Shown: positions 14,026-32,025 of the stretch, piece by piece
Layout of the letters: each line of letters opens with the position of its first letter
Numbering within the stretch: the first letter of the stretch is position 1
Source: Bacteroidales bacterium
GTDB taxonomy: Bacteria > Bacteroidota > Bacteroidia > Bacteroidales > WCHB1-69
DNA length: 35,169 nt
Assembly: GCA_028703095.1 (NCBI GenBank)
Contig: JAQVNO010000009.1
Span: forward strand, 1-35,169
Direction of reading: 5' to 3'
Program-made: the position numbers and the translations under genes
Notes under the pieces: generated by a model
Told to the model about the DNA's origin: nothing
Seen by the model: only the letters and a program-made list of their open reading frames with translations
The model's database searches: none

Positions 14026-14046
14026 TTTTCGGGTAAAAATAAAAAA

Positions 14047-14076
14047 TACACCTATTTTACATAGGTAAAATGTGTA
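14047..14076. promoter_or_regulatory. Hyphenated palindrome TACAC-CT-ATTTTAC-ATAG-GTAAAAT-GTGTA between KS1 and ACP1
   Basis: 5-bp (TACAC/GTGTA) plus 7-bp (ATTTTAC/GTAAAAT) arms, 4-nt loop, 2-nt bulge; right arm runs into the -7 element. Confidence 0.6.
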
Positions 14077-14082
14077 ATTTTG
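14075..14082 (+). promoter_or_regulatory. -7 element TAATTTTG upstream of ACP1
   Basis: TAnnTTTG match 38 nt before the ATG at 14120. Confidence 0.5.
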
Positions 14083-14119
14083 CACATTGAAATTATAATT
14101 ACATAACCGGTTTAAATTT

Positions 14120-14368
14120 ATGAAAAGAGAAGAGATTGTTACTATCGTTAATGATTTTTTAATAAAAGAGATAGAAATTGAAGAAAACTTAATAAAAGAA
14201 GATGCTCAATTAAAACAAGATTTGGATATTGATAGTCTTGATTTTGTTGATATTGTCGTCATTGTAGAACGTAACTTCGGATTTAAAATCAAACCGGAAG
14301 AAATGGCAAATGTAAAAACCTTATCCGAATTTTACGATTATATAGAAAGTAAAGTTAATCAGCAATAA
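14120..14368 (+). CDS. Acyl carrier protein (ACP1)
   Basis: 82 aa; phosphopantetheine motif DIDSLDFVDIVVIVERNFGFKI. Confidence 0.95.
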   Translation: MKREEIVTIVNDFLIKEIEIEENLIKEDAQLKQDLDIDSLDFVDIVVIVERNFGFKIKPEEMANVKTLSEFYDYIESKVNQQ

Positions 14369-14371
14369 ATA

Positions 14372-15342: not shown

Positions 15343-16428
15343 ATGAAATTAGAAAGTCCACAAAAAGAAATATATGGCAAAGAACGATTTACAGCTCTCC
15401 AAGCCCAGCGCTTGGCACAAGAAATAGTCTTCGGTCCCATCGTGTTTCAAGTATCCCGTTTAATGGTAAAATTCGGTATTTTTCAATTCCTCGATGACCA
15501 TAAAAACGGCTTGACATTGGAAGAAATTGCTGAAAAAACGCAATTAAGTCGTTACGGGGCACAGGTCTTGATAGAATCCTCCCTCACCATTGGAACAATC
15601 CTACTCAAAGACGAGAAATTCTTTTTAGCGAAAGCCGGCTGGTTTCTCCTTCACGATGAAATGGCTAGAGTTAATATGGACTTTAATCACGATGTAAACT
15701 ATGTAGGAACTTTCGATTTGGAAGCCGCTATTCTAAATGGCAAACCCGAAGGATTAAAAGTTTTTGGTAATTGGCCAACAATTTACGAAGGGCTTTCACA
15801 GTTACCGGCACATGTACAGAAAAGTTGGTTCGGATTCGACCATTTTTATTCCGATGGCTCTTTTGAACAGGCTTTGGAAATAGTGTTTAAAAACAATCCT
15901 AAAACCATATTGGATGTAGGGGGTAATACCGGACGTTTTGCGGCGAAATGCGTGGAATACAATAAAGAAGTGAATGTTACTATTATGGATTTACCGCAGC
16001 AATTGGAAATGATGCGACAACAAACAGTTAACAAAAACGGAGCCGAGCGCATTCACGGACACGGCGTAAATCTGTTGGATGAAAATGTCCCTTTTCCCAA
16101 AGGTTTTGATGTGATTTGGATGAGCCAGTTTCTGGATTGTTTCTCTGAAAAAGAAGTTACCGGTATCTTGCATCGTGCTGCGGCTTCTATGCAGGCAAAT
16201 AGTCGAATCTATATTATGGAAACATTTTGGGATCGTCAACGTTTTGAAACAGCTTCCTACTGTTTGACACAAATTAGTCTGTATTTCACCGCAATGGCTA
16301 ATGGAAACAGCAAAATGTATTTTGCTGCCGATATGGAACGTTGTGTAAATAATGCCGGATTATGTGTGGAAAGCATTCACGATGGATTGGGATTAGGACA
16401 CAGTATCATGGTGTGTAAAGTTAAATAA
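15343..16428 (+). CDS. SAM-dependent methyltransferase (winged-helix plus Rossmann O-methyltransferase fold)
   Basis: N-terminal winged helix (LTLEEIAEKTQLSRYGAQVLIESSLTIG) and SAM motif ILDVGGNTGRFAAKC. Confidence 0.9.
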   Translation: MKLESPQKEIYGKERFTALQAQRLAQEIVFGPIVFQVSRLMVKFGIFQFLDDHKNGLTLEEIAEKTQLSRYGAQVLIESSLTIGTILLKDEKFFLAKAGWFLLHDEMARVNMDFNHDVNYVGTFDLEAAILNGKPEGLKVFGNWPTIYEGLSQLPAHVQKSWFGFDHFYSDGSFEQALEIVFKNNPKTILDVGGNTGRFAAKCVEYNKEVNVTIMDLPQQLEMMRQQTVNKNGAERIHGHGVNLLDENVPFPKGFDVIWMSQFLDCFSEKEVTGILHRAAASMQANSRIYIMETFWDRQRFETASYCLTQISLYFTAMANGNSKMYFAADMERCVNNAGLCVESIHDGLGLGHSIMVCKVK

Positions 16429-16519
16429 TATCCACGTTTTTTGTCGTTAGCAAGAAATCTCGTACTTCCGTTCATTAGAAACCGACGTTTTTAATAGCGG
16501 CTCTCATCCTCTTAACTAT

Positions 16520-16533
16520 GAGATTGCAATCTC
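16520..16533. repeat. Perfect 14-bp palindrome GAGATTGCAATCTC
   Basis: Read directly; begins the tandem repeat block. Confidence 0.9.
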
Positions 16534-16643
16534 AGCTCGACGAGAATGCAATCTCAACCCAACGAGAATGCAATCTCAATTCAACAAGGATGGGGACTCA
16601 ATTCAACAAGGATGGGGACTCAGTTCAACAAGGATGGGGACTC
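16531..16643. repeat. Tandem direct repeat, 22-bp period, about 5 copies in two sequence subtypes
   Basis: CTCA anchors at 16531, 16553, 16575, 16597, 16619 and a partial CTC at 16641. Units: CTCAGCTCGACGAGAATGCAAT, CTCAACCCAACGAGAATGCAAT, CTCAATTCAACAAGGATGGGGA, CTCAATTCAACAAGGATGGGGA, CTCAGTTCAACAAGGATGGGGA. Confidence 0.95.
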
Positions 16644-16818
16644 CAGGGAAAGAGATAGAAACGAAGTTTTAATGAAGATAGGACATGTGTCCCATCCGAC
16701 AAAATCCCGCCTTTCGCTTAAGCTTTTTTTTACCGTTAATTGAGGGGAAAAATAAATGAATAAAATATGTTTTTTTTATTAATGTGTCTATATTGAAAGA
16801 GTCAAACATGTTTTTTTA

Positions 16819-16826
16819 TACTTTTG
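16819..16826 (+). promoter_or_regulatory. -7 element TACTTTTG upstream of the dehydratase gene
   Basis: TAnnTTTG match 65 nt before the ATG at 16891. Confidence 0.5.
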
Positions 16827-16890
16827 TATACTTTCGATGAATAAAAAAAACCTTATTAACGAGAATTTTTGATATAATATAAAACAGTTT

Positions 16891-17313
16891 ATGGATACTA
16901 TTTCCGTTTTAGACCTCATTCCGCAACGTCCTCCCTTTGTTATGATAAACAGTTTACTTTATGCCGACAAAAGCAAAGCAAATACAGTTTTTCAGATTTT
17001 AAAAGAGAATCTTTTTATCGATAAGGAAGGCAATTTTTCCGAAGCCGGCATAATAGAAAACATAGCACAGACGTGTGCTGCTCACATAGGATATATGAAT
17101 CGCTCCCAAGCCATGAAAATAGGAGTGATAGGAGCTGTTAAAAACTTGGAAATATACAAATTACCGAAATATAATCAAACTATTGAAACAAGTATTGAAG
17201 TTACCAATATAGTATTTGATACAACCATTGTACAGGCAAAAGTAATGTGTAAAGAAACACTCATTGCTGTTTGCGAAATGAAAGTAAGCATTACAGAGAA
17301 AACAATTAATTAA
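16891..17313 (+). CDS. Hotdog-fold beta-hydroxyacyl-ACP dehydratase-like protein
   Basis: LIPQRPPFVMINSLL and FSEAGIIENIAQTCAAHIGYM resemble FabZ-type hotdog motifs. Confidence 0.82.
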   Translation: MDTISVLDLIPQRPPFVMINSLLYADKSKANTVFQILKENLFIDKEGNFSEAGIIENIAQTCAAHIGYMNRSQAMKIGVIGAVKNLEIYKLPKYNQTIETSIEVTNIVFDTTIVQAKVMCKETLIAVCEMKVSITEKTIN

Positions 17314-19619: not shown

Positions 19620-19623
19620 TTAT

Positions 19624-19881
19624 ATGGAAGCATTAATATTGGAATTAAAGAAAGAGATCATTGAAGTATTAAATTTAGAAGAGATAAAACCTGAAGACAT
19701 AGACGAAAATGCGCCTTTGTTTGGAGAAGGATTGGGTTTAGATTCTATTGATGCCTTAGAACTTATCGTATTAATGGAAAAAAATTACGGCATTAAATTA
19801 AATAATGCCTCCGAAGGACGTGACATTTTCAAATCGGTACGTGTCATGGCCGAATACATTGAAAAAAACCGCACAAAATAA
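19624..19881 (+). CDS. Acyl carrier protein (ACP2)
   Basis: 85 aa; GLGLDSIDALELIVLMEKNYGIKL. Confidence 0.95.
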   Translation: MEALILELKKEIIEVLNLEEIKPEDIDENAPLFGEGLGLDSIDALELIVLMEKNYGIKLNNASEGRDIFKSVRVMAEYIEKNRTK

Positions 19882-19883
19882 GT

Positions 19884-31729: not shown

Positions 31730-31800
31730 GGTTCCGTGGCCGAGTGGCTTAGGCATCGGTCTGCAAAACCGAGTACAGCGGTTCGAATCCGCTCGGAACC
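31730..31800 (+). tRNA. tRNA-Cys (GCA)
   Basis: Acceptor GGTTCCG/CGGAACC; anticodon stem TCGGT/ACCGA with loop CTGCAAA (anticodon GCA); T-arm AGCGG-TTCGAAT-CCGCT. Confidence 0.96.
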
Positions 31801-32025
31801 TCTTAAAAAACAAAGGAATGAAATGAAAGTTTTATTCCTTTATAAATTTATACGGAAAGCAAAGAATTATACAAATTATACAAAGCGTAAATTAAAAATG
31901 TCAACAATCATACTTTTTTATCATTATTATCGTTTTAAAACGTATTGTATGTAAACGGTCATAATGAATACAAATTTTTATTAAAAAAATATACTTTCGC
32001 AAATTAAAAATAATATTTATATAAT

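Follow-up and report, generated by a model that had tools for sequence, protein, structure and literature searches.

Array architecture and genomic setting

Between two genes of a biosynthetic cluster lies a tandem array of 22-bp units whose sequence switches abruptly from one type to another, and the question it raises is whether such an array is a binding site acting on the cluster or one copy of a repeat dispersed through the genome. In the window (the whole stretch of DNA analysed, 35,169 nucleotides) the array sits between a methyltransferase gene, ending at 16428, and a small gene that starts at 16891, which an earlier sequence-only reading had called a dehydratase and which gives no Pfam match. 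That reading was correct that the gap between them (16429-16890, 462 bp) is the largest of the cluster, but not that it is the only large one, as 14026-14371 and 19620-19883 are also open. The cluster products comprise an aromatic amino acid lyase, a ketoreductase, ketosynthases, an acyltransferase, the methyltransferase and a thioesterase-like protein, a set that fits a pathway of the presumed aryl-polyene/flexirubin type. Ten neighbouring proteins were scanned and are biosynthetic or without assignment, and no replication gene lies beside the array. The sole Rfam match of the window is a tRNA gene at 31730-31801 on the + strand. Upstream of the dehydratase-like gene, TACTTTTG (16816-16823, + strand), recognised from its sequence as a TAnnTTTG-type Bacteroidota promoter element, lies about 173 bp downstream of the array, where it had been placed before; being outside the array, it served as a reference for conservation.

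The five 22-bp units previously described at 16531-16643 are exact: CTCANYYCRACRA matches at 16531, 16553, 16575, 16597 and 16619, the two proposed tails are present (GAGAATGCAAT in units 1-2 and AAGGATGGGGA in units 3-5), and a closing CTC runs to 16643. TRF likewise gives a period of 22, with scores of 97 and 131. However, the true start of the array is earlier, at 16520, where it opens with the perfect palindrome GAGATTGCAATCTC, and as the natural unit consists of a 14-bp brick together with an 8-bp linker, the unit as previously drawn begins inside a brick. The array is best read as six such bricks and five linkers, with three A bricks (GAGAWTGCAATCTC) followed by three B bricks (AAGGATGGGGACTC), neither block being assigned a strand. 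The A block (16520-16577) was placed by its sequence, the 22-bp frame and pattern matches at 16520-16555 and 16542-16577; its first brick (16520-16533) is the perfect palindrome, its second and third (16542-16555 and 16564-16577) read GAGAATGCAATCTC, and they are separated by 8-bp linkers at 16534-16541 and 16556-16563. The inter-block linker, placed by sequence and frame, is the 8-bp AATTCAAC (16578-16585, no strand). The B block (16586-16643), located by sequence, TRF, the 22-bp frame and a profile, has bricks at 16586-16599, 16608-16621 and 16630-16643, joined by the linkers AATTCAAC and AGTTCAAC; tested on consensus units, the B brick is not palindromic. A coding origin was rejected, the period not being a multiple of 3 and no supported gene extending over the array. 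The noncoding assignment of the sequence-only reading therefore stands, whereas the palindromic 14+8 architecture and the nature of the switch, discussed below, had been missed.

A dispersed family with a fixed order of modules

A BLAST search of the own genome (2.29 Mb, 192 contigs) with the array region returned many further copies, and the element is found at about 20 other intergenic loci across this genome and one sister species. Among 99 genomes searched by BLAST, the only carrier besides the own genome is G003, of the same genus. The genome-wide search for CTCANYYCRACRA that had been proposed gave 12 matches, compared to 2 for the reversed control. Given that the carrier genomes are drafts of at least 140 contigs and that several arrays lie at or near contig ends, these copy numbers are approximate. 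The other copies lie between unrelated genes, in all gene orientations; three of them (L037, L038 and L040, on G000:C174, C175 and C70) adjoin C-terminal regions that, from translations judged by eye, resemble RHS-repeat or polymorphic-toxin proteins. A phage or plasmid origin was rejected in the absence of a blastn match, and stray genome and viral matches (L103, L112, L114 and L116) were set aside as single chance bricks without an array.

Read in 22-bp frames, full copies consist of about eight modules in fixed order, in simplified form GAGTTCCCANGNCC, GACGTCCCAAGNCC, GRCCTCCCTTACTC, GAGATTGCAATCTC (one to four times), GAGCATGGGRRCTC, GAGTCCCCATGCTC, AAGAYAGGCACGGC and GAANGTGGGAAGCR, where GAGTCCCCATGCTC is the reverse complement of GAGCATGGGRRCTC and every module is followed by an 8-bp linker. 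Across 17 aligned copies the only length difference is in the palindromic block, which is longer by 0, 22, 44 or 66 bp. A profile of the right half, built from 18 other copies, matches the window at 16610-16683 without gaps (E=1e-4, the next best in the window being 2.5), while a profile of the left half finds no recognisable match in the window. The B bricks resemble module 5 of the family, GAGCATGGGGACTC, and the ungapped match includes a right-hand part (16644-16683, + strand) like modules 7-8, GAGATAGAAACGAA-GTTTTAAT-GAAGATAGGA. The window copy has three A modules and three B modules, and the inverted form of B is either absent from it or replaced. Given the resemblance of B to the module that follows the palindromic block elsewhere, together with the right-half match, the A-to-B switch reads as the point where one module of a longer element gives way to another, the two having been amplified independently.

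Gain, loss and divergence of units between relatives

A comparison of copy number with relatives had also been proposed earlier. At the orthologous locus of G003 the same array is present minus exactly one unit, with three A bricks and two B bricks, such that six bricks in the window face five; tandem units within the 10-60 bp range of minisatellites and VNTRs thus differ in number between relatives, in 22-bp steps. Two further orthologous pairs behave alike, L044/L070 having one and three palindromic units and L039/L072 four and one. In the latter pair identity is 97-99% in the flanks but falls to about 83% in part of the element, a difference that points to exchange with another copy. The many genomic copies and the whole-unit changes at orthologous loci bear out the proposal that the array is a member of a dispersed VNTR family, and both this membership and the gain and loss of whole units are shown.

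The same comparison speaks to a role in the cluster. Between the window and G003, 14.7% of sites differ in the array, 14.3% in the left noncoding flank and 4.9% on the promoter side of the downstream gene, the difference between array and promoter side being significant (p=0.011). The idea that the array is better conserved than its flanks was rejected, as it diverges like the left noncoding flank and faster than the promoter side; it is therefore not conserved in the way a control element of the cluster would be. This faster divergence and the unrelated gene contexts of the other copies do not support the iteron-like array acting on the cluster that had been suggested, and a conserved regulator of this kind would appear unlikely.

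A 22-bp geometry shared by unrelated units

Matches to the pattern GAG-N8-CTC-N8-GAG-N8-CTC number 33 in the own genome and 30 in G003; G001, of the same genus and with different cores, has 19, and G033, from another genus, has 11. Each of the other 100 genomes of the taxonomic family has zero or one. Within the order, five matches were counted in G420, and most genomes had none. When the spacing was scanned on sampled contigs of the four carriers, the 8/8 arrangement gave 73 matches and each of 80 other spacings at most one, and controls of the same composition gave none in eight genomes. The 14+8 geometry is found again in a second class, GTAA-N6-TTAC, which matches 6 times in the own genome, 12 times in G003 and not at all in the six others tested, and further unrelated 22-bp arrays occupy the same intergenic regions as the GAG arrays. 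At a lag of 22 the carriers have 25-45 self-matches, where the median per lag is 0-1, and G002, G015 and G012 have 0-1; the carrier contigs were partly picked for holding GAG arrays, and the excess elsewhere rests on only 510 kb. In those 510 kb, picked regardless of GAG arrays, the clear period-22 arrays of at least three copies are the window array and TCATTTGTACGCATACAAATTG in four copies.

Several individual loci illustrate this variety. Beside a GAG array, L158:2078-2300 (G000:C175) carries two arrays of unrelated units, of the AAAACCAAGC and ACTCAACTGAGTAA types, at the same 22-bp spacing. In the other genus, L189 (G033:C257) has a GAGACGGCG-type array and then the unrelated 22-bp unit ATATAGTTATATCGCGAATGCA in 11 copies (155-276 and 515-759). 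Two contigs from a viral collection (L147:9992-10224 and L148:1911-2143) show seven GAGGCACTTGCATC-type bricks switching abruptly to three of the GAGTTAGCAAACTC type, the whole keeping to a 22-bp frame, with GCCTAGGC among the linkers. The two contigs share near-identical sequence running in opposite directions, and both may derive from a single locus. Given that phage-like genes lie on one side of this array and a recQ-like and then a recJ-like gene on the other (names assigned by reading their sequences), the array may lie at the border of a prophage with its host, recalling the dRS3 repeat discussed below as a phage integration target. Near-identical paired bricks, GAGTAAAATTACTC-N8-GAGTAATTTTACTC, are found in four genomes (G118:C108, G043:C25, G439:C5 and G425:C117), three families being included; together the paired bricks make up a long inverted repeat, which could be a terminator or some other element.

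Inverted arms within the bricks

Among 37 distinct GAG bricks, pair 4-11, which lies outside the searched triplets, is complementary in 68% compared to 28% after shuffling and occurs as all four pair types, and pair 5-10 is complementary in 49% compared to 32%. In the linkers of this class, complementarity is 55% for pair 2-7 and 50% for pair 3-6, compared to 32%. As bricks within one array are relatives, the 37 bricks are not 37 independent tests; nevertheless, the change of pair type between genomes is direct. The GAG class is thus shown to retain its palindromic arms while the sequence changes. Full two-fold symmetry of every 22-bp unit was not upheld in general on consensus units and applies to the brick arms and inner linker pairs of the GAG class only. 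For the GTAA class the excess of complementary pairs is not significant, and within one aligned subfamily there is no covariation, no pair having changed on both sides.

Origin and possible role of the array

The reading judged rather probable places the array in a dispersed intergenic minisatellite family, of which it is a diverged copy. The 22-bp units of this family include several brick types in fixed order, and most types have inverted arms. On this view dynamic repeat DNA is the most likely description of the array, as opposed to a switch for the surrounding gene cluster. Short inverted arms would allow hairpins to form during replication, leading to the duplication or loss of whole 22-bp units, and replication slippage or unequal recombination, favoured by such hairpins, could change the unit number. 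Imperfect arms might be restored to perfect palindromes through template switching, a process that one report describes for quasipalindromes in E. coli (PMC7202029) and that another proposes to create and maintain hairpins (PMC8794818). Copies may in addition be mixed by ectopic recombination between intergenic regions, as one orthologous pair suggests. No regulatory role specific to the cluster is needed in this account; against it, the 22-bp period of unrelated arrays is left unexplained and the B brick is not palindromic.

A dimeric or polymerising DNA-binding protein could instead recognise bricks spaced two helical turns from each other along the same face of the DNA, making the arrays chromosome-organising or regulatory sites; the sharp preference for 8/8 spacing, the empty controls and the second class of identical 14+8 geometry argue for it. 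However, brick cores vary widely, divergence is faster in the array than on the promoter side, the number of units changes freely, gene contexts are unrelated and most close relatives are without such arrays, such that a binding array is unlikely, even if a candidate protein preferring sites two turns apart is possible and forms the most interesting alternative. It is likewise doubtful, though worth stating, that a dedicated factor acts on or generates arrays of fixed geometry, in which a 14-bp inverted-arm brick and an 8-bp linker place two-fold axes about every 11 bp, with unrelated cores and in several Bacteroidales lineages; if so, the arrays would form an intergenic element class of their own, carrying an intrinsic two-turn ruler.

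Less probable still is a non-autonomous MITE-like mobile element that contains a minisatellite and depends for its movement on a transposase acting in trans. Copies are indeed numerous, intergenic and of fixed modular order, with outer modules partly inverted, and full copies fold far better than shuffled sequences (z -9.7 and -9.2), but neither a clean insertion with its empty site nor a target-site duplication was found, and the sole resolved presence/absence difference (L053/L237) resembles a deletion through short repeats. Furthermore, the Y1 transposase family (PF01797) is present in G000 but undetected in the carriers G001 and G003 (drafts 72% and 88% complete), on which ground a RAYT/REP origin was also rejected. 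It is very improbable that the array is an RNA element, in which clusters of hairpins transcribed between the methyltransferase and dehydratase-like genes would stabilise mRNA or else end or insulate transcription. The + strand of the array folds better than shuffled sequences (z -3.8 in the window, -3.9 in G003), yet the other strand folds too (z -2.2 and -3.0), the aligned subfamily shows no two-sided pair change, gene context is varied and no intrinsic terminator (a GC-rich stem followed by a T run) lies in 16380-16920; a known RNA family was rejected, the array having no Rfam match.

Descriptions of bacterial intergenic minisatellites usually deal with a single unit sequence each. In the present family and its neighbours one geometry is kept by several unrelated units in the same genomes while their arms co-vary, and what is kept (22 bp, inverted arms) can therefore be separated from what is not (sequence). 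Whether repeat length is set by a protein or by a replication error process is testable in these arrays, which also warn against taking this one for a regulator of the aryl-polyene/flexirubin-type cluster.

Comparison with known repeat systems

Plasmid iterons are direct repeats of about 17-22 bp at replication origins, to which an initiator protein from a nearby gene binds. The array resembles them in having direct repeats about two helical turns apart, but it lies in a chromosomal biosynthetic cluster, is dispersed, has varying brick cores and adjoins no replication gene. REP elements (20-40 bp with a GTAG or CGTC tag, often with a RAYT gene; PMC3733652) are also small intergenic palindromes, unlike which the RAYT transposase is undetected in two carriers of the present family.

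The dRS3/NIME repeats of Neisseria are 20-bp ATTCCC-N8-GGGAAT sequences in about 700 copies, interspersed with RS elements and serving as a phage integration target (PMC3898611). Both they and the present units have short inverted ends around a variable 8-bp core and form intergenic mosaics, but the unit here is a 14-bp GAG-N8-CTC brick in head-to-tail arrays with a fixed 8-bp linker. Among the open-access literature the nearest description is BrickBuilt of P. gingivalis, an intergenic, strain-variable 23-nt minisatellite inside a MITE, with a non-repetitive leader and tail and IS5-like terminal repeats (PMC4596501). Neither IS5-like terminal inverted repeats nor a target-site duplication was found at the copy edges or at the one resolved presence/absence junction, and given that the defining features of both systems were looked for and not found, neither name is given to the present family. 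It nevertheless shares with BrickBuilt a Bacteroidales host, tens of imperfect, dispersed intergenic copies, a two-turn tandem unit without spacers, a variable copy number (in BrickBuilt between strains), predicted stem-loops and a narrow host range, and differs in that the BrickBuilt unit is 23 nt of a single sequence, whereas the unit here is exactly 22 bp and of several ordered types.
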